The position numbers were made by a program, and so were the translations under genes. From Burkholderiales bacterium (GTDB lineage: Bacteria > Pseudomonadota > Gammaproteobacteria > Burkholderiales > WYBJ01), in contig JALHQN010000001.1 of NCBI GenBank assembly GCA_022841915.1, positions 558,001-622,000 on the forward strand: DNA of 64,000 bases, written 5' to 3'. The notes beneath the pieces are model-generated. The model made no database searches. It was not told the origin of the DNA and worked only from the letters and a program-made list of their open reading frames with translations. Positions 33,101 to 53,648 of this stretch are shown piece after piece (position 1 is the stretch's first letter; every line of letters starts with the position of its first letter).

Positions 33101-33616
33101 ATGAATCGTCTCCAACTCGCTGCGATGCGGCAACGCGGTGCGGTGCTGATCGTCGGCTTGGTGATGCTGGCCGTCATGACGCTGCTCGTCGTCTCCATGA
33201 TCAAGACGTCCGTCGTGGAACTGAAGATCGGCGGCGCCCATCAGATCGCCCAGCAGAACCTCACCAACGCCGAGCGCCTGATCAATACCTTCATCGACGT
33301 GAACAACGGACGCTTCGCCGCCGACTACCTTGCCCTGGCCACGGCCGCCGGCGGTCCTGTCGCCCCGGCATCGGGGACAGCCACGTATAGCGCAACCGGG
33401 CTGACTTACAACATCGCCCCCGTGAATCTGCATGGCGGCAGGGCCGCGCTGCAAGTTCGCCAGTTGCAATGCACAGGGCTGCGCGTCGTAGGTGTCGGCA
33501 TGGGAAGCATCGAGTACGTGTTTTTCGATGTCCGTTCCACCGCTACGGGCGATCTGGGCGGATCCACCACGGTCCATCAAGGCATCCGTTCCATCGTGCC
33601 TGCGGGTTCCTGTTAA
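33101..33616 (+). CDS. pilX: Minor pilin assembly protein PilX
   Basis: A 171-residue protein with the PilX N-terminus: RQRGAVLIVGLVMLAVMTLLVVSMI, then VVELKIGGAHQIAQQNLTNAE. It lacks the canonical Glu5 environment of major pilins, as PilX proteins do. It works with PilV, PilW and PilY1 in pilus priming. It lies 2 bases after pilW and 32 bases before pilY1. Confidence 0.9.
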   Translation: MNRLQLAAMRQRGAVLIVGLVMLAVMTLLVVSMIKTSVVELKIGGAHQIAQQNLTNAERLINTFIDVNNGRFAADYLALATAAGGPVAPASGTATYSATGLTYNIAPVNLHGGRAALQVRQLQCTGLRVVGVGMGSIEYVFFDVRSTATGDLGGSTTVHQGIRSIVPAGSC

Positions 33617-33648
33617 GCGCACCGTGCTTTTTCCAAACGAGGTCAGAG

Positions 33649-36600
33649 ATGCTGCCTAAGAAGCGAAGCGCCAGAAATGCCACGGTATGGGCATTGATCG
33701 CGGCGCTCCTCAATCCCGCTGTCATGGTGCCCGGCGCCTTCGGCCGGGATACCGACATCTTCATGGGCCTCGCATCTTCGGTGACGACAGCGGAACCGAA
33801 CATCCTGCTGTTGCTGGACACCTCAGATTCGATGAACACCTACGAGGGCTGGCGCGAGTACGAAGGCGCGTACGACTCTCACGTCGAGTATCTCTGGAAC
33901 GATCCCAATTACATCAACACGATTACGACGACCGCGCCGAACGCCGACTTCAGCAACGTCGGCTCCTCGCCGAACAATTACTTCGTCGGCTACAGCGGCT
34001 CTTGCCCGAGCGCCACCAACACGCAGTGCCCGCGCGACTCGGGCTACTTCGCCGGATCCACGGATGCGATTCGTGCAGCGCTGAAGACGACCGTGCTCGC
34101 CTATGCGGGAGCGACCGAAAGCGGCGACCCGGGAGCGCGCTCGACCTTTCGCAATTACAACGACGCTTCGTGGATCTACTGGCTGCCCACAGGCACCGCC
34201 GAAACCGACAACCGGCTTTGGTCGCTCACGTTCAACCGTTTCGTCGGTGGTGTTCGGGTGTCGAACTTCAGCAGCACCAACGGCACCGCCAACCCTGTCG
34301 TGCGGGGTGGATTCAACTACGGCAACAACAACAATCGAACCGTCGGCACCACGCTGCATACGTCGAGCGGCACGCTGAACCGCTGCACCGCTTCGCTGGA
34401 CCAACTTCTGCCCTCCACGGTCTACGCCCCGACAGAGCACGCCCGCAACAGCGGAAAATGGACCAATCAGTCATGGCTGCGCTACGAGCGCTGGCTCAAT
34501 CTCGAGAACTCGCGCGCCTCGGCCTATCCGGGCGATCACAACACGGTGAATCTGGGCGGCACCAACTACCGGATCGGATACAGCGGCAGCTTGGGTTACG
34601 ATCCCGCGATCACGCCGTTCCCCGGCCCGACCGATCCCATCGTCAATGCCCCCGGCAGCACGCCGCGCGGCGTCGCGGCGCCGCCCGCTCCGACCATTAC
34701 GCGCTTCCGCGACAACGTCGGCACCAATGGATCGCAAGGACAGCCGATTCGCGTGCAGGACGACACGGGCTCGAACGGTTTCGCCGATGATCCCACGGAT
34801 TCGCATGCGGGCTGGACACCCCTCAAGGCAGACCTCGGCGGCTACGTCTTCCAGAGCGCAGTCAACAACTTGTCGCAGGCCAACCTCACAGCGCTCAGAG
34901 GCGTGTACGGCTATGGCCTGCTCGCGGTGAACGGCGCCAGCGCCGTCGAACTCGAGCGGTTCAGCGCCTGGCTCGGCAACCGGGATGTCGCGACAACGGC
35001 TTTCGGCTTGGTGACGGGCACCCCCGCTTACTACAACATTCGCCCGGGCGACATCAGCGTGACCAGCGGCACGACGACCAACACGTGCACCCGCACCTGC
35101 GGAGCGGTCGCCGTGGGCGCAGCCGGCCCCACCAGCGATGGTGCGGACGGCAACAACACCACCCGCTTCTACTACCAACCGAACGGCAGCGGTCAATACT
35201 GCAATCCTAACGGCACCCTATCGGGGAACTGCGCCAGCTTGGGCGGTAGCGTCGCCGATCCACCCTTGTGCACCACCGCAGGCATACAGAACTACGTCAA
35301 CCGCAACAATACGGGTTGCAGTTGGACGGGCCGCAGTTCCAAGTACGTCGAAGGGGTGGGCACGGTCTTTTACGGCGGCACCTGTTCGGGCAGTTGTCGG
35401 GGCGCGGGTTTCGTGCTGGGCGGCGCCGATTGCCCGTCGGGCGCGACGAGCACGTCGTACTGCAACCAACCCACGTCCGGGAACAGCGGTGCCAACTGGC
35501 TGGGCACGTTCACGGTCGACGGCACCACCTACAACGGCGTCACCAAGAACGTGATCGGCACCTGCTCCGATGTGGGCGACACTCAGCAGGACTGCGCTAC
35601 GCGCAAGGGCTTCGCCTGCGTCTACGCCTCGAACAACGTGGCAACCTTCTGCCCCAACCGCACGAGCAGCGTCACCACCGGCGGCTCGGTGCTCAACTAC
35701 CCGCGCTACAACCGCAATGCCAACGAGGACAATCTCGTGCACGATTGCAAGGCCGACGAGCCGGCCAACAACGGCGGCGCGAACGTCTTCATGACGAACC
35801 AGAAGCGGGATTTCGACCGCTCCTACAACACCGCGATCAACACCACCAACACCACCGCGTCTTATACGACCAGCGCCGGCAATGCCATCACCGATGCACC
35901 GGCGATCGACCTGTACTCGGTCAACTACCTCAACTGGAAGTACGGCCCCAAGGGCCCGAGCGGCCATCCCATCGGCCGCAAGACACGCCTGCAGATCGCC
36001 AAGGATGCGCTGGCCGACTTGATCGCGACCACCGATGGCGTGCGCTTCGGACTCGAGACGTTCAACGCCTTGCCCGACGACTCCACTTTGCGCTCCACGC
36101 AAGGCAGCCAAGGCGGGAAGATCGTGTTCCCGGTCAAGCGCATGGGCAGCAACGCCGCGGATGTCGATTACGCCAACCGGGCAGCCTTGATCAACGTCAT
36201 CAACACCCAGTTGGCCAAGGCAGCCACGCCGCTTACGGAATCGTTGTACGAAGCCTACCTGTACTACAGCGGGCGAGCGCCGCGCTTCGGCACCTCGGGT
36301 GCCATCACGGCGAATTTCGGCGCAGCCGCACTACCTGCGGTCGGCGGCGGCAGTGTGACCGACGGCGCGGATCCCACCGCCGTCAGCGCCGGCAACTACG
36401 TCTCGCCCATCATGCTGAATCCTACGTCGGCCACGCCCTCGTCGTGTCAGAAGAACTTTGTCATCCTGCTGACGGACGGCGGTCCTGACAAAGACGTGGA
36501 TGCCAACGACCAGATCACGCCGAAGCAATACACGGCGCTCGCGGGAACCATCGCCCCCGACACACGGATCGACACGATCCAGACCGATACGACCAGCGGG

Positions 36601-39162
36601 CAATTCGAAGTCGGCGATCCCCCCTTGCCTTATGGCCCGGCCAGCATCGGAGATACCGGTCGCACCGATGGCGGCTACGTCTGGCTCGACGAACTGGCGT
36701 ACTTCATGAGCAAGGCCGACATGAGCCCGGGTGCGCGGCATAGCGCGACCGAAACGACGACCGATCAGCTGCTCGGCACTCAGACGGTCACGACTTACAC
36801 GATCGGTTTTGCCGGCGCCAACTCGCCCGTGCTCGAAAACGCAGCCAGCCGTTCTGGCGGCGCCTACTATATCGCCGAGGACAGCGCCCAACTCGCCGCC
36901 GCATTGACCGACGCGCTGATTCAGATCCGCGCATTCACGCCGACCGTCGCAGCGCCCACGGTGCCGCTGTCGGCGCTCAACAGAGCGCAGAACGCCCTCG
37001 ACGTCTATCTCGCCTTCTTCGCGCCCTCCCCCAGTCAGGCCTGGAAAGGCACGGTGAAGCGATTCCGCATTGGTGTCGGGGCAACCGATTGCGGCCCCGA
37101 CAAGGAGCTCTGCCTCATCGGGCAAACCGCGCTCGACGGCGGCTTCAAGGACATCGAGCGACTGGAGACCGACGCCCTCACCGGCTTCGAACAAGTCGTG
37201 GTGAATCCCGAAGCGGTGAGTTTCTGGAATCCCGTGACACTGCAAGACGGAAGCAAGCCCGACAAAGGCGGCACGGGCCACCAGCTGATCTCGGTTGCTG
37301 CCTACACCCCGGCGGCTCGCAAGGTCTATACGTTCCTGAGCTCGAACTCCTCGTCTCCGCCAACCAGCGCCGCGCTGACCGACGCCACCAATCTGGTGAC
37401 CGAGGACAACACGCGCATCACCAAGACGATGTTGGGCAACGCCGGCATGTCGGATGCGGCGCGAAGCACGCTGATCAATTACATTCGCGGCGGCAATCCG
37501 GCCGATGCCTCCTGCAGCGATGCGTACGATCCAGGCAACATCACCGCATGCGCGGCGTGGCGGTCGTGGGCGCATGCGGACGTGCAGCATTCCCGGCCCA
37601 CGATCATCGCTTACGACACCACGCCGGTCGCCGATGCCCAGGCTCCCGGAAACGAGCGCGCGACGACGCAATACCTCTTCTTCCTGACCAACGACGGGCT
37701 GCTGCATGCCGTCGACGCCACCACCGGCCAGGAAAAATGGGTTTTCCTGGTCGAGGAGGCCTTGCCCTTCATCAACGCAGTCATGACCAACGCCAACGGC
37801 GCGTCGCTCGATCTGGCGGACGGCAGTCCGGCATTCTGGGTGGACCGCGGCGACCGCAACGGCATCGTCGATGGCTCGGAGCGCGTGTGGCTGTACTTCG
37901 GCCTGCGGCGCGGAGGCAAGGCCTATTACGCGCTCGACATCACCAACATCGATTCGCCGCAATTCATGTGGCGGGTCACGCCGACGGAACGTTGCGCGGG
38001 TGCTTCGTGCAGCGCCAGCACCGACTATTCGCTGCTCGCCCAGACCTGGTCGACTCCGGTGGTGGCGCGGGTGGCGGCCACGACGGGTGCGTCCGGCGCC
38101 CGACCGGCCGGCAACGCCGATCCCGTGGTCATGTTCGGCGGCGGGTACGACCCGCAGCAGGACACCGAGCCGCTGCCAGCGGGAACGACGGCCGACACCA
38201 TAGGCAAAGCGCTCTTCGTGGTCGAAGGCTCGAACGGCACGCTGGTCAAGCGCTTCAGCAATGTCGCGGGCGACTTCATCAATGCAAGCGGCATCGATTG
38301 GAGCATTCCATCGGACTTGACGGTGCTCAACACGGATCTGGACGCGCAAGGCTTCATGGATCGGATCCTCGTCGGCGACGTCGGCGGAAACTTGTGGCGA
38401 TTCGACATCGGCGCACTCGATGCCGCGTCGTGGAAAGCCAAGCGACTCGCCATACTTTCCGACCCCGGGGTGCCCAATCGCAAGATCCTGTTCCCGCCTG
38501 TGGTCGTCCCGCAGTACGCCCCCTTCCCCGTGGAATGGGACGCGGTCTATGTCGGCACCGGCGACCGCGAGCATCCGTTGACCATGACATCATCGGACAA
38601 GATCTTCATGGTGGCCGACTTCGATATCGGGCTCACGGCGACCGCAGGCACCGCAGCCACCTTCTCGGCCGGAGACTTCCTCGGTCTGTCCGTGACGGAT
38701 ACACAAGGGGTCCTGCCGACGACGCTGGTGACCAAGCGCGGGTGGTACCGCGACCTCGACCCAGGCGAGAAAGTGACCGGACCTCCGTTCGTGTTCAATC
38801 AGAAGCTCCGTTTCAGCAGCTACAGTCCATCGGCAATCTCGAGCGAGTGTCTGCCGCCGGGCGAGGGCCGCCTGAACGAGATCAGCGCACTTTACGGGAA
38901 CATGGTCGACTTGAACGGCGACGGCTCCCTGACGGCGCGCGATCGCTACTATCCGGGCGTCAGCCGCGGGTACTACTCGCCGCTGCAGACGGTGATCATC
39001 CGTGGTTCGATCTACACGATCGGCTTCGCCGGCGGTAACGTCACGAACACGGCCACTCCGCCGGCATCCGGATGCGGCGCGGGAGCCCAGCTATTCAGCT
39101 GCCGCGAAGGTGTCGTCGGGGTTGCAAGGCGGACCTACTGGTACATGGAGCCCGAGCAATAG
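33649..39162 (+). CDS. pilY1: Type IV pilus tip adhesin PilY1 with a large insertion in its vWA domain
   Basis: An 1837-residue secreted adhesin and pilus-tip protein. Signal segment near residues 10-32; the vWA metal-site motif DTSDS starts at Asp57. The helix that normally follows (RKTRLQIAKDALADLI) appears only near residue 777, so about 700 residues, including a cysteine-rich stretch, are inserted. The rest of the vWA fold follows (FVILLTDGGPD, TYTIGFAG). The C-terminal third is the PilY1 beta-propeller: LFFLTNDGLLHAVDATTGQEKW, a calcium-type loop DRNGIVDGSE near residue 1405, and VGDVGGNLWRFD. A second EF-like loop, DLNGDGSLTARD, is near 1750. GAGG precedes the ATG at 33649. Last gene of the operon. 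Confidence 0.93.
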   Translation: MLPKKRSARNATVWALIAALLNPAVMVPGAFGRDTDIFMGLASSVTTAEPNILLLLDTSDSMNTYEGWREYEGAYDSHVEYLWNDPNYINTITTTAPNADFSNVGSSPNNYFVGYSGSCPSATNTQCPRDSGYFAGSTDAIRAALKTTVLAYAGATESGDPGARSTFRNYNDASWIYWLPTGTAETDNRLWSLTFNRFVGGVRVSNFSSTNGTANPVVRGGFNYGNNNNRTVGTTLHTSSGTLNRCTASLDQLLPSTVYAPTEHARNSGKWTNQSWLRYERWLNLENSRASAYPGDHNTVNLGGTNYRIGYSGSLGYDPAITPFPGPTDPIVNAPGSTPRGVAAPPAPTITRFRDNVGTNGSQGQPIRVQDDTGSNGFADDPTDSHAGWTPLKADLGGYVFQSAVNNLSQANLTALRGVYGYGLLAVNGASAVELERFSAWLGNRDVATTAFGLVTGTPAYYNIRPGDISVTSGTTTNTCTRTCGAVAVGAAGPTSDGADGNNTTRFYYQPNGSGQYCNPNGTLSGNCASLGGSVADPPLCTTAGIQNYVNRNNTGCSWTGRSSKYVEGVGTVFYGGTCSGSCRGAGFVLGGADCPSGATSTSYCNQPTSGNSGANWLGTFTVDGTTYNGVTKNVIGTCSDVGDTQQDCATRKGFACVYASNNVATFCPNRTSSVTTGGSVLNYPRYNRNANEDNLVHDCKADEPANNGGANVFMTNQKRDFDRSYNTAINTTNTTASYTTSAGNAITDAPAIDLYSVNYLNWKYGPKGPSGHPIGRKTRLQIAKDALADLIATTDGVRFGLETFNALPDDSTLRSTQGSQGGKIVFPVKRMGSNAADVDYANRAALINVINTQLAKAATPLTESLYEAYLYYSGRAPRFGTSGAITANFGAAALPAVGGGSVTDGADPTAVSAGNYVSPIMLNPTSATPSSCQKNFVILLTDGGPDKDVDANDQITPKQYTALAGTIAPDTRIDTIQTDTTSGQFEVGDPPLPYGPASIGDTGRTDGGYVWLDELAYFMSKADMSPGARHSATETTTDQLLGTQTVTTYTIGFAGANSPVLENAASRSGGAYYIAEDSAQLAAALTDALIQIRAFTPTVAAPTVPLSALNRAQNALDVYLAFFAPSPSQAWKGTVKRFRIGVGATDCGPDKELCLIGQTALDGGFKDIERLETDALTGFEQVVVNPEAVSFWNPVTLQDGSKPDKGGTGHQLISVAAYTPAARKVYTFLSSNSSSPPTSAALTDATNLVTEDNTRITKTMLGNAGMSDAARSTLINYIRGGNPADASCSDAYDPGNITACAAWRSWAHADVQHSRPTIIAYDTTPVADAQAPGNERATTQYLFFLTNDGLLHAVDATTGQEKWVFLVEEALPFINAVMTNANGASLDLADGSPAFWVDRGDRNGIVDGSERVWLYFGLRRGGKAYYALDITNIDSPQFMWRVTPTERCAGASCSASTDYSLLAQTWSTPVVARVAATTGASGARPAGNADPVVMFGGGYDPQQDTEPLPAGTTADTIGKALFVVEGSNGTLVKRFSNVAGDFINASGIDWSIPSDLTVLNTDLDAQGFMDRILVGDVGGNLWRFDIGALDAASWKAKRLAILSDPGVPNRKILFPPVVVPQYAPFPVEWDAVYVGTGDREHPLTMTSSDKIFMVADFDIGLTATAGTAATFSAGDFLGLSVTDTQGVLPTTLVTKRGWYRDLDPGEKVTGPPFVFNQKLRFSSYSPSAISSECLPPGEGRLNEISALYGNMVDLNGDGSLTARDRYYPGVSRGYYSPLQTVIIRGSIYTIGFAGGNVTNTATPPASGCGAGAQLFSCREGVVGVARRTYWYMEPEQ

Positions 39163-46323: not shown

Positions 46324-46587
46324 ATGGCAAACATCAAATCAGCACAGAAGCGCGCTCGGCAAAGCGAAGCTCTCAGAGAGCACAACGCCAGCCTGCGCTC
46401 GCGGATGCGCACAGCAATCAAGCGCGTTCGCAAGGCCATCTCCGACGGCGACAAGGGCGCTGCGCAGACCGCGTTGATCTCGGCCCACAGCATGCTCGAC
46501 TCGACCGCCGGCAAGCGCATCGTGCACAAGAACATGGCAGCGCGTAACAAGAGCCGGCTCTCGGCCGCAGTCAAGGCGATGGCCTGA
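46324..46587 (+). CDS. rpsT: 30S ribosomal protein S20
   Basis: An 87-residue basic protein: [20 protein letters not shown], then [14 protein letters not shown] and [24 protein letters not shown]. Matches S20, which binds 16S rRNA early in assembly. GAGG precedes the ATG at 46324. It is divergent from murJ, the usual arrangement, with about 160 bases between for both promoters. Confidence 0.97.
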
Positions 46588-46602
46588 TTCGGGCACTTTG
46601 CT

Positions 46603-46971
46603 TCAGCTCGAACGTTGCGGTGCCGGCTCCGCAGCACGCCGCTCGTTGTTGTCAGTGACCGCACCCACAGAATTCGGATCCCGACCCGGCCGCATCGTTA
46701 GTTCATTGTCATGGGCAAAGTCCAGCAGGAACTTGAAGGCCGAGGGATCCAGACTCTCCAGCTTCCTATCCACGACGACGCATGTCAGTCCGTCGGCGAT
46801 AACCGGCTTCAGGTAGGGCGAATACGAAAGATGTCTGTCCTCGCCGAATATCGACATCATCCCGCATAAACGTTCGGCCCAGTCGCTCGGCCGAAACGTC
46901 CGCCCCGACTGCGTCATGCCGACAATGACAATTTCGGGGGCGACAGCGCCCGGCCGCGCTTCTTGAGTCAT
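46603..46971 (-). CDS. DUF3579 family protein
   Basis: A 122-residue protein: IVIVGMTQSGRTFRPSDWAERLCGMMSIFG (core SGRTFRPSDWAERL), DRHLSYSPYLKPVIADGLTCVVVDRKLE and FKFLLDFAHDNEL. It belongs to the mostly betaproteobacterial DUF3579 family, function unknown. It is convergent with rpsT (15 bases apart) and upstream of, but opposite to, argD. Confidence 0.85.
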   Translation of the reverse strand: MTQEARPGAVAPEIVIVGMTQSGRTFRPSDWAERLCGMMSIFGEDRHLSYSPYLKPVIADGLTCVVVDRKLESLDPSAFKFLLDFAHDNELTMRPGRDPNSVGAVTDNNERRAAEPAPQRSS

Positions 46972-47490
46972 GCGTCGATTCTAGCAGACAGCACCCGCCC
47001 GCTTGGCCGCCGTCTCGTCGTGCGATATGCGTCTGGCAAATCGCCCTGCCAGTTTCACCTCCACGCGCCCTGACCAGCCGGCATCTAGGGCAGCCTCGAC
47101 GCCGAACGCTTCCTGCTGCGCACCCTTGACGGAAGCCTCGGCGCGCGCGCACCGCATCAACACTCGCCTGCCGCAAAGACCGACGGTCGAATCGAGCGCT
47201 AGCGAAGACGCCGTTCAGTCTGTCGCCCTTGAGCCGATTGCGCCGGATTCTCCGTGCAGCCGCCGAGACGAACATCCCGACTCCGGCAAAGCGCTCCACT
47301 TCCCGACGACACCTGACGACTGACCACGAGGTGTGTGGCCGGCCTGCGCGCGGCAATCCAGGCGGTAGCGCAGAAACAGAACGAGCCCGTTGCCGCCCTG
47401 GCGTTTCTCCTTCGGGCCCCCACCCTTGCGCATGGCGGTCGATTCGGCTAAATGTAGAGGTTTTCCCATTCACTCACCACGGGTTCGGCC
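46972..47490. other. Divergent intergenic region, no gene supported
   Basis: 519 bases between DUF3579 and argD. Short open frames on the minus strand around 46981-47163 and 47199-47423 have no recognisable domain or ribosome site. The region must carry the arg promoter, but I cannot point to hexamers or an operator with confidence. Confidence 0.5.
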
Positions 47491-48684
47491 ATGTCCCACG
47501 TCATGAGCACCTATGCACGGCAACCGCTCGCTTTCACGCGGGGCGAAGGCGTCTTCTTAATCGATGCGGCAGGCAAGCGCTACCTGGATGCCCTCGCCGG
47601 CGTGGCAGTGATCAGCATTGGCCATTGCCATCCGAAGCTCGCCAAGGCGATCTCGGATCAAGCGCACAGCCTGATCCACACCTCGAACATATTCAACATC
47701 ACGCTGCAGGAGAAGCTCGCCGATCGCCTGTGCGAGGTGTCCGGGATGGACAACGTGTTCTTCTGCAATTCCGGTTGCGAGGCCAACGAAGCGGCCATCA
47801 AGCTTGCACGGCTGCACGGGCACAAGAAAGGCATCGAGGTGCCGACCATCATCGTCACCGAGAAGAGCTTCCATGGTCGGACGATGGCCACGTTGACCGC
47901 GACCGGTAGCCGGAAGGTTCAAGCGGGGTTCGAGCCGCTCCTCGCGGGTTTTGCCCGTGTCCCGTATGACGATCTCACGGCCGTGCGTCAGGTGGCCGCG
48001 AACAACAAGGACGTCGTGGCGATCCTGGTCGAGCCGATCACCGGCGAAGGCGGCATTCACATTCCCGCCGAAAACTACCTGAGCGAATTGCGGGCCATCT
48101 GCGATCAGAACGGATGGCTCTTGATGCTCGACGAGGTGCAGACCGGCATGGGCCGCACGGGCAAGTGGTTCGGCCATCAGCACAGCGGCGTGCGCCCCGA
48201 TGTCATGACGCTTGCGAAAGGCCTGGGTGGCGGCATGCCGATCGGAGCCTGCCTCGCATCGGGGCCGGCAGCCAGCCTGTTCCAGCCCGGAAAACACGGC
48301 TCCACCTTCGGCGGCAACCTGCTCGCTTGCGCAGCCGCGCTGGCGGTGCTCGACGTGCTGCAAGAAGAGAAGCTGGTCGAGAACGCGACCAGCACCGGCG
48401 AGTACCTCATGAGCCGTTTGCGCAGCGAGTTCACCGGCGTACCCGGCGTGACGCAGATCCGAGGACGCGGGCTCATGATCGGCATCGAGCTCGATCGCAA
48501 CTGCGGCGAACTCGTCCCCATGGCGCTGGAACGCGGCCTGATCATCAATGTGACGGCGGACAACGTGGTCCGTCTGGTGCCGCCGCTGTCGTTTAGCGTT
48601 GAGCATGCGGATCTGCTCGGCTCGATCCTCGTCCCGCTGATTCGCGATTTTCTATCGAGTGCCCCCGCGCGCTCGGCAGCCTAA
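47491..48684 (+). CDS. argD: Acetylornithine aminotransferase
   Basis: A PLP-dependent class III aminotransferase of 397 residues acting in arginine (and probably lysine) biosynthesis. Motifs: NSGCEANEAAIKLAR, SFHGRTMATLTATG, EPITGEGGI, LMLDEVQTGMGRTG, the PLP lysine in MTLAKGLGGG, and HGSTFGGNLLACAAALAVL. An ATG five codons downstream is an alternative start. argF follows 4 bases later; argG is third in the block. Confidence 0.96.
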   Translation: MSHVMSTYARQPLAFTRGEGVFLIDAAGKRYLDALAGVAVISIGHCHPKLAKAISDQAHSLIHTSNIFNITLQEKLADRLCEVSGMDNVFFCNSGCEANEAAIKLARLHGHKKGIEVPTIIVTEKSFHGRTMATLTATGSRKVQAGFEPLLAGFARVPYDDLTAVRQVAANNKDVVAILVEPITGEGGIHIPAENYLSELRAICDQNGWLLMLDEVQTGMGRTGKWFGHQHSGVRPDVMTLAKGLGGGMPIGACLASGPAASLFQPGKHGSTFGGNLLACAAALAVLDVLQEEKLVENATSTGEYLMSRLRSEFTGVPGVTQIRGRGLMIGIELDRNCGELVPMALERGLIINVTADNVVRLVPPLSFSVEHADLLGSILVPLIRDFLSSAPARSAA

Positions 48685-48688
48685 GGCC

Positions 48689-49615
48689 ATGACTTCGTCC
48701 GTGAGGCATTTTCTCCAGTTCAACGACTTCTCGCGCCCCGAGATCGAGCATCTCTTTCGCCGCGCAAGCTGGATCAAGCAGCGCTTCAAGCGCTACGATC
48801 CCTACCGCCCCCTGTCGGACCGAACGCTCGCGATGGTGTTCGAGAAGCACTCGACGCGCACGCGAGTTTCGTTCGAGGCCGGCATGATGCAACTGGGAGG
48901 GCATGCGATCAACCTGGCTACTCGCGACACCCAACTCGGCCGCGGCGAACCCATCGAGGACGTCGCACGCGTCATCACGCGCATGGTCGACATCGTCATG
49001 ATCCGCACCTTCGAGCAGGCGATCATCGAGCGTTTCGCGGAGAATTCGCGCGTACCGGTGATCAACGGACTCACCGACGAATTCCATCCTTGCCAGATCC
49101 TGGGCGACATCTTCACGTACATCGAACACCGAGGGCCCATCAGCGGGCGCACGATCGCCTGGGTCGGAGATTCGAACAACGTGTGCAATACCTGGCTGCA
49201 GGCCGCATGCCTGCTGGACTTCAAACTGCACGTGGCGTCCCCTCCTGGATACGAAATCGAAACCACCCGCGCCGACGCAGCAGGCGATCACCTGGCCCGG
49301 TTCGCAGATCCTCACGATGCGGTGCGGGGTGCCGATCTGGTGACGACGGACGTATGGACCAGCATGGGCTTCGAAGAGGAAACCGAGGAACGCAAGCATG
49401 ACTTCGCCGATTTCCGCGTCGATGCGGAAATGATGGCGCTAGCCAAGCCGACTGCGCTATTCATGCACTGCCTGCCGGCGCACAGGGGCGAAGAAGTCAC
49501 CGCAGAGGTGATCGACGGTCCGAACAGCGTCGTTTGGGATGAGGCCGAAAATCGTTTGCACACGCAGAAGGCGCTGCTGGAGTTTCTCCTGCTGGGGCAG
49601 GTCGATCCGGCATGA
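48689..49615 (+). CDS. argF: Ornithine carbamoyltransferase
   Basis: Condenses ornithine and carbamoyl phosphate to citrulline. 308 residues with the carbamoyl-phosphate loop STRTRVSFE, the ornithine-side motifs DEFHPCQILGD and GDSNNVCNTW, and HCLPAHRGEEV at the active site. The start at 48689, 4 bases after argD, is chosen over an in-frame start inside argD. Clearly cotranscribed with argD. Confidence 0.97.
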   Translation: MTSSVRHFLQFNDFSRPEIEHLFRRASWIKQRFKRYDPYRPLSDRTLAMVFEKHSTRTRVSFEAGMMQLGGHAINLATRDTQLGRGEPIEDVARVITRMVDIVMIRTFEQAIIERFAENSRVPVINGLTDEFHPCQILGDIFTYIEHRGPISGRTIAWVGDSNNVCNTWLQAACLLDFKLHVASPPGYEIETTRADAAGDHLARFADPHDAVRGADLVTTDVWTSMGFEEETEERKHDFADFRVDAEMMALAKPTALFMHCLPAHRGEEVTAEVIDGPNSVVWDEAENRLHTQKALLEFLLLGQVDPA

Positions 49616-49790
49616 ACCTAGCCCTCGAACTCACATGCGCGCCATGCTGAAAGCTGGCTTTGACGCGCCACGCGAACACCCCATCTGACGCGCGCATACC
49701 GACGATCGCCCGTACTGCCGCTACGCAATCATCTCTTGCCACGCGTGACAATCACGCAACGCAGCTGACAATACTCGACAGGGAATGGAT

Positions 49791-51026
49791 ATGGCTCAGA
49801 AGAAAGTAAAGAAGGTCGTGCTCGCCTATTCGGGCGGACTCGATACCTCGGTGATCCTCAAGTGGCTGCAGGATGAGTATCAGTGCGAAGTGGTCACCTT
49901 CACGGCCGACATCGGGCAAGGAGAGGAAGTCGCGCCGGCGCGCCGCAAGGCCAAGCAGTTGGGCGTCAAGCAAATCTTCATCGAGGACCTGCGCGAAGAG
50001 TTCGTGCGTGATTTCGTGTTCCCGATGTTTCGCGCGAACGCAGTCTACGAGGGCGAATATCTTCTCGGCACCTCGATCGCCCGTCCGCTGATCGCCAAGC
50101 GCCTGGTCGAAATCGCTCGGGCGACCGGTGCCGACGCGATCTCCCACGGAGCGACGGGCAAGGGCAACGATCAGGTGCGCTTCGAACTGGGCGCCTACGC
50201 ACTGATGCCGGATGTTCGTGTCATCGCACCTTGGCGCGAATGGGACCTGCTCTCGCGCGACAAGCTGCTCGCCTACGCCGACCAGCACGGCATCCCGGTC
50301 GATTTCAAGAAGCGTCGCGGCGGCGGCGCCCCGTATTCGATGGACGCCAATCTGCTGCATATCTCCTACGAAGGCGGCATACTCGAAGATCCGGACTTCG
50401 AACCGGAAGAATCGATGTGGCGCATCACCGTATCGCCCCAGAAGGCGCCCAGCAAGCCGGAGTACGTCGATCTCGAATACCGTGGCGGCGACATCGTCGC
50501 CGTCAACGGCAAGAAGCTCAGTGCAGCCAAGGTGCTCGAGACGCTCAACCGCATCGGCGGGCGCCACGGTGTCGGTCGACTGGATATGGTCGAGAACCGC
50601 TACGTCGGCATGAAGTCCCGCGGCTGCTACGAGACGCCCGGCGGCACCATCATGCTGCGCGCCCATCGCGCCATGGAATCGATCACCCTGGATCGCGAGG
50701 TGCTCTCGCTCAAAGACGATCTCATGCCCCGCTATGCGCGCCTCGTGTACAACGGCTACTGGTTCAGCCCCGAGCGCCGCCTGCTGCAAGGCCTCATCGA
50801 CGAATCGCAGAAGGCCGTCAATGGCCATGTGCGGGTGAAGCTCTACAAGGGGACGGTGCTGGTCACGGGACGGCGCTCCGAAACCGATTCGCTGTTCGAT
50901 CCGCGCATCGCCACTTTCGACGACGACAAGGGCGCATACAATCAGGCGGACGCCGAAGGCTTCATTCGCCTCAATGCGCTGCGACTGCGGATCGAAGCGA
51001 ATCTGCGCAAGAAGCGTCGCCGCTAG
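49791..51026 (+). CDS. argG: Argininosuccinate synthase
   Basis: Joins citrulline and aspartate using ATP. 411 residues: the ATP pyrophosphatase loop AYSGGLDTS near the N-terminus, [26 protein letters not shown] and [22 protein letters not shown] (key part [11 protein letters not shown]). The ATG at 49791 has AGGGA six bases upstream; an ATG two codons earlier lies inside that site. It is separated from argF by 175 bases that may hold its own promoter. Confidence 0.97.
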
Positions 51027-51065
51027 TCATCCGACGGTCTCGCGTCGACAGCGATCGGAACGATC

Positions 51066-51644
51066 ATGACCACGATCGCCGTGGTGAAGAAGAACGGCTA
51101 CGCGGCCATCGCCGCCGACACCTTGACCAAGTGGGGTTCAGGCAAGGAGTCTGCGGCCTACATCGCGAACAGCGACAAGATCGTGAAGGTCGGCTCGACC
51201 TTTCTCGCCGGATCCGGCTCGGCCACCTTCAAGATCATCCTGCGCGACTACTTCTCACGGCCTCGCGTAGCGCCGAAGTTCGATGACCCCCTGTCGATCT
51301 TCCGTACTTGGCAGCGGCTGCATGCGGTGCTCAAGGACGAGTACTTCCTGCTCACCGGAAACGACAAGGACGATACGCTCGAGTCGTCGCGCTTCGACGT
51401 TCTTCTCGCCAATCCTCGCGGAATCTTCGGCATCGGCGCTCATCGAACCGTGCAGGAGTATTCGAAGTTCTACGCGATCGGCAGCGGCACGGATCTCGCT
51501 CTCGGCGCGCTCTACGCCACCTACGACGACCCTGGCCGCGACGCGCTGTCCCTGGCCCGGCTCGCTGTCGTGACAGCCGCGGAGTTCGACGATGCGACCG
51601 GCTTGCCGGTCACCGCGAACAAAGTAAAACTCGCCGCAACTTAG
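51066..51644 (+). CDS. Betaproteobacterial proteasome homologue (BPH), Ntn-hydrolase peptidase-like
   Basis: A 192-residue proteasome-fold protein related to HslV and Anbu. After Met removal the N-terminal residue would be Thr1 (TTIAVV), the nucleophile of the family. Asp17 ([11 protein letters not shown]) and Lys37 (NSDKIVKVG) sit in the positions of the proteasomal Asp17/Lys33 pair. The remainder ([45 protein letters not shown]) matches the HslV/BPH fold, where GSG is conserved. No HslU-type ATPase is adjacent. It sits 39 bases after argG and 19 bases before yajQ, all on one strand. Confidence 0.85.
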
Positions 51645-51663
51645 CCCCCTGAGGAGCCATGCC

Positions 51664-52149
51664 ATGCCTTCGTTCGATATCGTCTCGGAAGTAGATCAGG
51701 TCGAAGTGCGAAACGCCGTCGATCAATGCAACAAGGAGGTGACCAATCGATTCGACTTCAAGGGCTCGGATTCACGCGTGGAAATCGGCGACAAGATACT
51801 GACGGTGTTCGCCGACGACGAGTTCAAGCTGGGACAGGTCCGTGACGTACTGACCGGCAAGCTCAGCAAGCGCGGCGTGGACATCCGTTGCCTCGAAACA
51901 GGCGACTCTGAAAAAATATCCGGCAACAAGATGAAGCAGGCCGTCACGGTACGAGCAGGTATCGAGCAGGACCTCGGCAAGAAGATCATCCGGATGGTGA
52001 AGGACAGCAAGCTCAAGGCGCAGGCAAGCATCCAGGCCGACACCGTGCGCGTCTCGAGCAGCAAGAAGGACACGCTGCAAGAGGTCATGCAGCTGATACG
52101 CAAATCCGTGACCGACTTTCCTCTCCAGTTCAAAAACTTTCGCGACTAG
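51664..52149 (+). CDS. yajQ: YajQ family nucleotide-binding protein
   Basis: A 161-residue protein: [55 protein letters not shown] and a C-terminus [18 protein letters not shown]. It has the two ferredoxin-like lobes of YajQ, members of which bind c-di-GMP or nucleotides. GAGGAG lies upstream. It is the last gene in the argG-BPH-yajQ run; a 9-bp stem-loop follows 25 bases after the stop. Confidence 0.95.
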
Positions 52150-52507
52150 CTTCCCGAGTCGCAGATGCGTTTCCGATTCGGCGATCCCGCCGAATCGCCT
52201 GATGAGTGGCACAAGCGCCGCTGTCGATGCCAGAAGCGAGGCGAACCCAGTCGGACCGGACATCGGGCGAGGATTCGCAAGAACCGCCTGGCCCCGACCC
52301 CGACCGGAATTTTTGCGGTGCGTTTTCGCCCCGAACGCTGGCTCCAGGCGCCATAGCAATCGACTTACGTGCGGACGCATGTCGGCTCGCTTTACACCTG
52401 CACGCCCGTCTCGCGCAGGAATCTTTGATTTTTCTCACGATTGATGCTGGGCATCGATTCTGCTTGAGCAAGCGCTTTCAGTCAGTACGCGCCCGTGCCG
52501 CTCAACG
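52150..52507. other. Intergenic region with a stem-loop after yajQ
   Basis: 358 bases with no gene seen. At 52174-52197 CGATTCGGC and GCCGAATCG form a perfect 9-bp stem with a 6-base loop, 25 bases after the yajQ stop. It lacks a T-run, so it is only a possible terminator. Confidence 0.5.
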
Positions 52508-53470
52508 ATGCCTTACCCCGCAATATTCCTAGCCTTGCGCAACCCGGCGATCCTCGTCCTTGCAGCGCTCATGTCGACTGCCGCTGCGTCCGCGCCGCTA
52601 TTGATCGAGCGTAACGCGAGCCAAGTCTCGATGTCAGCCGAGGCGCCTCGCCTGAGCGACTCGGAGCTGGTCGATGCGCAAGCCGCGCACATGGACATGG
52701 GGGAGACCACGTCGAATCTCCCATCGACTTCCTCGGGCCCCGTCCAGGCTTGGGGCACCTCCGCAGATGCCCTGAAGGGCTTCGCTTCACCCTCGAGCAC
52801 CAGCCTCGCGTTCGATGCCCTGCGCGGCTTCGTAAACGTGCCTGCAGAGGGATTTGAGGCAAACACCGGGCGCTCTGGACCGCGCCGCCCGACCGGTCGC
52901 CCCGATGACATGGCCTTGATCGTCGCGCCAGAGGCACAGGCCTGGATTCACGACGCCGTGCGCAACATCGTCAATTCCACACTGGAATTGCACGAGCGCG
53001 AAGGCCACACCACCTTCTCAGTGTTGGGACAAGGCAATTTCGGCCTGATGGTCTCGGCAGACCGCTCCGAGGTAGCCTTCGTATCTGGCGAGGATGTGCT
53101 GTTCTCGGCGCACCGCATGCCCTACCCCCAGACGTCGAGCCACGCGGCTGGCGGCTACAGTGACAGGGATCCCTTCGGCGGTTCATCTGGGCCAGGCCCC
53201 GTCCGTGCCCCGACCAATGAAAATCCGCTACAGCAGGTGGTCGAAATCGCCGCCGAAATCAGTACACATCCGATCAGTCTGCTCGTCTACATCATCGTCG
53301 CGATCTACGCGCTGCTGTGGAGCGTCCTCAGCCGCCAGGCAAGAAAGGCGCCGCGCCACGCTCGTTCCCGTTCCCGTTCTCGTTCCCATGCCGCTCCAGC
53401 AGATCAAGCGCCTGCACCGCAGCGCACCGGGCGCAAGCGACGCCGTTTTCGCACACGTCGCGCGGCATAG
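52508..53470 (+). CDS. Unknown single-pass membrane protein with arginine-rich C-terminal tail
   Basis: 320 residues, family not recognised. Visible: an N-terminal signal-like segment (FLALRNPAILVLAALMSTAAASA), a low-complexity Ser/Pro/Gly region, a middle domain (VAPEAQAWIHDAVRNIVNSTLELHEREGHTTFSVL, in part), one transmembrane helix (ISLLVYIIVAIYALLWSVL) near residue 260, and a very basic tail with RSRSRSR and TGRKRRRFRTRRAA. The tail is coded by short CGTTCC-type DNA repeats at about 53361-53388. The stop TAG coincides with the start of a MITE end at 53470, so the last residues may not be ancestral. No Shine-Dalgarno seen. Confidence 0.6.
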   Translation: MPYPAIFLALRNPAILVLAALMSTAAASAPLLIERNASQVSMSAEAPRLSDSELVDAQAAHMDMGETTSNLPSTSSGPVQAWGTSADALKGFASPSSTSLAFDALRGFVNVPAEGFEANTGRSGPRRPTGRPDDMALIVAPEAQAWIHDAVRNIVNSTLELHEREGHTTFSVLGQGNFGLMVSADRSEVAFVSGEDVLFSAHRMPYPQTSSHAAGGYSDRDPFGGSSGPGPVRAPTNENPLQQVVEIAAEISTHPISLLVYIIVAIYALLWSVLSRQARKAPRHARSRSRSRSHAAPADQAPAPQRTGRKRRRFRTRRAA

Positions 53471-53495
53471 TGTCCTGAGCCAGAGATTGCTCGGA
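53470..53495 (+). repeat. Solitary left end of the MITE-like element
   Basis: GTGTCCTGAGCCAGAGATT repeats the left terminus at 5789 with a single difference, and is preceded by TA. I found no matching right end within the next few hundred bases, so this is a decayed or partial copy. Confidence 0.6.
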
Positions 53496-53648
53496 GAATT
53501 TCCCATCACCTCGAGCACCCTCGGGTTGGGAATGCATCGAAATCATCGCCAGGGGCGAGCGGACCTGCGACGAGGCGGCAGCCTGCCTGGCTATCCGCCG
53601 CTTTACGGCGACGGATTCGGCGCTATCTGGGCCGTGGATCTCGAGGCG

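Follow-up and report, generated by a model that had tools for sequence, protein, structure and literature searches.

A proteasome-like peptidase gene set between argG and yajQ raises the question of what that address says about the function of its product. The gene lies in a window of 64,000 nucleotides (the whole stretch of DNA analysed, from a contig of a Burkholderiales bacterium), and the original prediction read it as a betaproteobacterial proteasome homologue (BPH) with no ATPase partner nearby, whose tight placement suggested coexpression with arginine synthesis or with YajQ. Genome context has so far been one of the few clues to BPH. Three contexts were described as prevailing (PMC5777263, 2017), namely an argG operon adjacent to argD and argF in Thiobacillus denitrificans, a pyruvate dehydrogenase operon in C. 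metallidurans, and Hsp33 in Laribacter hongkongensis; the main text of that report has no occurrence of yajQ. Homologues added since were described as having no genome contexts suggestive of function (PMC8665760), and titles and abstracts among the papers listed by searches of the open-licence literature gave no later functional work on BPH. The reading favoured here, at a probability of about 0.78, is that the window gene, of a subfamily called type A below, would encode an ATPase-independent threonine peptidase, and that its address beside argG would reflect inheritance and co-expression, not a function tied to arginine synthesis or to YajQ.

Table 1. Features of the BPH locus in the window (window coordinates; residues numbered after removal of Met).
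Feature	Position	Strand	Basis
argD, acetylornithine aminotransferase	47491..48684	+	Pfam/NCBIfam
argF, ornithine carbamoyltransferase	48659..49615	+	Pfam/NCBIfam
argG, argininosuccinate synthase	49785..51026	+	Pfam/NCBIfam
BPH (type A) gene, 192 aa, N-terminal-nucleophile proteasome-like peptidase	51066..51644	+	ORF, PDB match, relatives, dN/dS
Thr1 codon, predicted nucleophile	51069..51071	+	translation and alignments
Asp17 codon	51117..51119	+	translation and alignments
Lys37 codon (equivalent of proteasomal Lys33)	51177..51179	+	translation and alignments
Acidic pore-loop stretch, residues 90-107	51336..51389	+	role suggested by analogy with Td-BPH
yajQ (DUF520, cyclic di-GMP-binding family)	51664..52149	+	Pfam/NCBIfam

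The BPH gene and its active site

The reading frame starts with ATG and is translated through 192 codons with no internal stop; the open frame extends to 205 codons, and the 13 extra codons hold no ATG, GTG or TTG. In a phmmer search of PDB chains with an E limit of 10, the protein matched just two sequences, both named BPH (E 1e-69 for 5ovs/5ovt and 1.3e-33 for 5ovu), and the predicted identity is thereby borne out. Among 399 genomes from the order, the window's own included, 152 have BPH matches, and those listed fall into two identity tiers: 55 loci at or above 54%, termed type A and including the window, and the rest at 36-47%. Because of the PDB matches, the presence of the gene in 54 other genomes at 54-81% identity (among the matches listed) and its low dN/dS, a chance ORF is ruled out; on this sequence evidence the ORF is a real gene, and an intact, ordinary member of the published BPH family. 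Comparison of eight close pairs gave dN/dS of 0.00-0.13 for BPH, within the range of the neighbouring genes and showing purifying selection at the sequence level; in the window's own pair, where synonymous sites are near saturation, BPH (0.120) exceeded ArgG (0.053). At E 0.001 the window protein had no match in Pfam and none in NCBIfam, and genes of this kind may thus go unnamed in annotation. The PF00227 profile misses it, its matches in the genome being confined to two other places, but recognizes a type B relative (L040) at 2e-8.

With the Met removed, the window protein carries T1, D17, K37, G50 and S139, the residues described for the active site of T. denitrificans BPH (Thr1, Asp17, Lys37, Gly50, Ser139; PMC5777263). 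The Thr and Asp17 of the original prediction are therefore in place, and the Lys that it left unnumbered is Lys37. Every type A row (55) and every type B row (46) has Asp17, Lys37 and Gly50, and in all 101 residue 1 is Thr or Ser; in a wider alignment of 117 rows that includes truncated ones, Asp17 is kept in 115 and Lys37 and Gly50 in 116 each. Ser139, described as hydrogen-bonding Thr1 (PMC5777263), is replaced in 8 of the 55 type A rows, by Ala in seven and by Thr in one, which weighs slightly against the favoured reading. The protein begins MTT, with Met directly before Thr1 as is characteristic of BPH; in relatives the Met is removed and Thr1 is free (PMC5777263). Residues 90-107 form an acidic stretch, as for a BPH pore loop, whose net charge averages -5.2 over the 55 type A rows (span -7 to -3) and -6.8 over the 46 of type B.

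The argG-yajQ locus with and without BPH

The comparison covered the 54 type A regions besides the window and 46 regions of the lower tier, with up to 7 kb of flank on each side as the contigs permitted. At type A loci argG lies upstream on the common strand in 53 of 55, the other two (L051, L100) running off their contigs, and yajQ lies downstream in 53 of the 54 with enough sequence, L051 being without it; at L050 and L052 about 2.7 kb separates BPH from yajQ. The survey of BPH neighbourhoods proposed with the original prediction thus found this one to be conserved. A ppnP gene (Pfam Ppnp) stands between argG and BPH at 32 of 53 loci and is absent there in the window, where the gaps are exactly those first read, 39 bases from the end of argG at 51026 and 19 to the start of yajQ at 51664. 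From the upstream stop to BPH the median gap is 8 bases (53 loci), and at 10 of 53 BPH overlaps argG or ppnP by 4 bases (gap -4); from BPH to yajQ the median is 21.5 bases (52 loci). These short gaps and overlaps support an operon. A consensus scan of 47300-52600 returned one promoter-like site (shuffles 1.0) and four terminator-like sites (shuffles 4.2), so that, being at the shuffled rate, it does not bear on read-through; Rfam gave zero matches at gathering score over 46500-53500. After yajQ, a 320-aa ORF at 52508-53470 (+) has no match in Pfam or NCBIfam.

The 46 lower-tier regions comprise 42 of type B and a separate group of four with Ser1 (L101, L105, L108, L120). Neither argG nor yajQ adjoins BPH in any of the 46; at L113 and L137 argG is several kb off on the opposite strand. 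Among 39 of the 42 type B loci, eight read aceF-BPH-lpd, hslO directly follows BPH in 16, and the neighbours differ from these in the remaining 15; the genes were named by clustering, with a Pfam check of a single example of aceE, of aceF, of lpd and of hslO. As a sequence-based pattern, the argG linkage of type A wherever visible, against none of the 46 other regions, is apparently new with respect to the reports cited here.

The control for this linkage was a set of 80 genomes picked from the order set, 55 without a BPH match and 25 with type B only. In 33 of the 45 BPH-negative genomes having both genes, argG precedes yajQ on the common strand within 3.5 kb (within 300 bases in 11), and the arrangement is absent in 12; it is present within 3.5 kb in 16 of the 25 type-B-only genomes. 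The window's own genus repeats the pattern, with BPH missing from two of four genomes though the cluster is intact, argG and yajQ being 128 and 159 bases apart in the BPH-negative G055 and G100. No BPH remnant was found between argG and yajQ in 20 hand-picked junction regions (18 BPH-negative, two type-B-only) in which the two genes are 32-1168 bases apart. Two weak hits considered as remnants, L159 (E 0.002) and L160 (E 0.001), were rejected since both lie outside the junction; only the L160 hit reappeared in a recheck at E 0.01, within a gene that resembles an unrelated synthase. With argG and yajQ linked in its absence, BPH is an optional member of the cluster, and since the cluster does not need BPH, conservation of the address alone cannot signal BPH function.

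These controls bear on the explanation that survives best after the favoured one, in which BPH works with its cluster by trimming or turning over ArgG, YajQ or another protein linked to arginine supply, this work being the reason for the fixed address. The near-constant flanking genes and the 4-base overlaps would be expected under it, and arginine synthesis has been tied to stress (PMC5777263). Against it stand the linkage of argG and yajQ in genomes without type A, the intact cluster in congeners lacking BPH, the other homes of type B, and pulldowns with C. metallidurans BPH, which as described recovered no partner (PMC5777263); such a role is accordingly judged unlikely. As for the coexpression first proposed, co-transcription is likely, as the overlaps at 10 of 53 loci indicate, whereas the link to arginine or YajQ does not follow, because argG and yajQ stay together without type A, and the BPHs of type B belong to other operons. 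The argG-linked synteny should therefore not lead experiments on BPH.

Under the favoured reading, in which the address is inherited, BPH would have a single entry into, or a long residence in, an argF-argG-(ppnP)-yajQ cluster, dating from an ancestor shared by some of the Burkholderiales, and would then have passed mainly by vertical inheritance with repeated loss. On a joined ArgF-ArgG-YajQ tree made by a quick method (69 rows, 49 with BPH and 20 without), BPH presence changes at least 10 times, six of them forced by starred branches; such counts cannot tell loss from gain, and loss is the probable direction. The window and G005 are sister there to the BPH-less G055 and G100 of their common genus. 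Distances between BPHs at 47 loci correlate with those of ArgG (r 0.53), YajQ (0.55) and ArgF (0.46), none of 999 permutations reaching as high; the comparison values were 0.70 for ArgG-YajQ and 0.59 for ArgG-ArgF, and with BPH-ArgG below ArgG-YajQ some transfer is possible. The single fixed position, together with monophyly of type A, favours one origin with repeated loss.

BPH subfamilies and the Thr1/Ser1 nucleophile

Type A forms one clade holding all 55 rows (FastTree 0.98; SH-aLRT 97), and a second clade (0.89) comprises the Burkholderiales rows of type B. A class-wide search of 369 genomes (own included) added 45 genomes with matches, at identities of at most 44%; four of these class-level sequences, four acidobacterial ones and the Ser1 group join type A (SH-aLRT 96), and the deepest split of the BPH tree is weakly supported (0.71-0.83). 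Thirteen alignment positions separate A from B, for example K21/T, W22/F, K26/R and E27/L. In G582, near 1041124-1041674 of contig C1, a BPH match is split over three segments that lie in different reading frames, and may be the trace of a decayed gene.

Ser1 has been reported for all BPHs outside Betaproteobacteria (PMC5777263). Of 140 rows, two HslV outgroups included, 104 have Thr at residue 1 and 36 have Ser, and on the tree of these rows the residue changes at least six times, three of them forced by starred branches. Outside the order, 28 of the 29 class-level sequences read (from the 45 genomes with matches) have Ser1, Thr1 occurring in L179 alone, on a long branch; the four acidobacterial BPHs are divided between Ser1 (L038, L046) and Thr1 (L037, L039, titled Pyrinomonadaceae). 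Inside the order, Ser1 is found in type A L064 and L073 and in the group of four described above. The Ser1 codons of L064 and L073 are AGC and AGT, and the other 34 are TCN. With Thr1 outside and Ser1 inside Betaproteobacteria, the published rule fails in both directions, most of the sequences concerned being metagenome bins whose taxonomy comes from record titles or GTDB grouping.

In three genomes (G118, G156, G341) the Thr1 type A copy at argG is accompanied by a second, Ser1 copy at another locus (L120, L108 and L105, respectively); these are three of the 12 g29 genomes with a BPH match. G192 and G392 were rejected as further cases, their second matches being partial (E 9e-4 and 2e-4). By tetranucleotide composition the contigs of the Ser1 copies lie at distances of 69-96 from the type A contigs of their own genomes. 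Two further genomes of the genus are at 135-153, three other families at 205 or more, and two acidobacterial loci at 373 or more. Homologous flanks are common to all three assemblies. Both the composition and these flanks speak against contamination from a distant source; a contaminant of the same genus is possible.

Taken jointly, these observations make it fairly probable that BPH comprises at least two subfamilies with different homes (A at argG-yajQ in Burkholderiales; B at aceF/lpd, hslO or elsewhere), that the nucleophile has toggled between Thr and Ser several times, including a Thr to Ser change in type A by way of AGY, and that Thr1 and Ser1 barrels exist side by side in some betaproteobacteria; that they might share mixed rings is speculation. 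The repeated changes at residue 1, and the three betaproteobacterial bins whose sequences carry both a Thr1 and a Ser1 BPH, are apparently new with respect to the reports cited here. If true, the published view of Ser1 as the mark of BPH outside Betaproteobacteria would fall, and natural Thr/Ser comparisons inside one cell would become available. The repeated switches, like the presence/absence pairs inside one genus, are better handles on the role of BPH than the synteny.

The proposed self-compartmentalizing peptidase among known systems

The BPHs of T. denitrificans (Td-BPH) and C. metallidurans (Cm-BPH) are tetradecameric double rings with an acidic pore loop (PMC5777263). By analogy with Td-BPH, the window protein would be a self-compartmentalizing, ATPase-independent N-terminal-threonine peptidase that forms a 14-subunit double ring without a propeptide. 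Removal of the initiator Met is predicted to expose Thr1, which Asp17 and Lys37 would activate inside an acidic chamber, and read-through from argG would supply the protein from an argG-BPH-yajQ transcript. Since the purified proteins showed no activity on casein or on the peptides assayed (PMC5777263), the case for proteolysis by BPH is drawn from the fold, the modification of relatives by epoxomicin and MG132 (same source) and conservation.

Of 22 other ORFs chosen between 33.5 and 63 kb of the window, none matched the profile of an AAA+ family, in agreement with the absence of a nearby ATPase partner first noted. A 1897-aa ORF at 33469-39162 (+) gave a weak PilY1 beta-propeller match below the cut-off. 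A partner encoded elsewhere, HslU or another AAA+ unfoldase, is an alternative less probable still than a role in the cluster: hslV and hslU do lie side by side on another contig of the window's genome (G000:C23), and HslU is missing from 16 of 152 BPH-bearing as against 89 of 247 BPH-less genomes (raw counts that ignore kinship), which is co-occurrence, not exclusion. Yet BPH persists in those 16 genomes, 15 of which are also without HslV over the cut-off, so that HslU goes with HslV, and G395 is the sole genome seen with HslU and BPH in which HslV was not detected. Moreover, residues contacting HslU are reported as not conserved in BPH, and HslU was not recovered in the pulldowns described (PMC5777263). 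Persistence without HslU, together with the co-occurrence, indicates that BPH is independent of HslU and that the two are not alternatives to one another. G100, of the window's genus and listed as 99% complete, has no BPH or HslV match and no HslU over E 1e-30. Least probable of all is a catalytically dead structural relic, which would account for inertness in vitro (PMC5777263) and patchy presence, but hardly for Asp17, Lys37 and Gly50 in 101 of 101 rows with Thr or Ser alone at residue 1, for low dN/dS, or for relatives that epoxomicin and MG132 modify (PMC5777263).

Among known systems, the proposed ATPase-independent peptidase stands closest to Td-BPH (PDB 5ovs/5ovt; Fuchs et al. 2017, PMC5777263), from a different species, which the window protein, known from its sequence, resembles in all five active-site residues. 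Td-BPH also has the type A signature residues K21, W22, K26 and E27, as do the type A rows, and its published operon places argG adjacent to argD and argF as in the window. Cm-BPH (Cupriavidus metallidurans, PDB 5ovu) shares family and catalytic residues with the window protein but differs in carrying a type B, T/F/R/L-like signature (V-T-F, R, L) and in its pyruvate dehydrogenase operon (PMC5777263); the assignment of 5ovs to Td-BPH and 5ovu to Cm-BPH follows the description in that report and the molecule names, and the trees above were built without either sequence. HslV (TIGR03692) has the proteasome beta-like fold and N-terminal Thr in common with BPH but, unlike it, is a dodecamer working with HslU (PMC5777263). 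The window protein was rejected as an HslV, having no NCBIfam (TIGR03692) match and argG and yajQ, not hslU, as neighbours. Anbu is, like BPH, a proteasome-like family, and differs in gene, N-terminus and context. The second PF00227 protein of the window's genome (24.6 bits) is ORF 1243-2355 of L210, near 140515-141054 of G000:C1, and carries MTYCVAIRLKAGLVFLSDSRTNAG in its N-terminal part. Judged from that N-terminus it is presumably Anbu; if so, the window's genome would hold HslVU, Anbu and BPH together.
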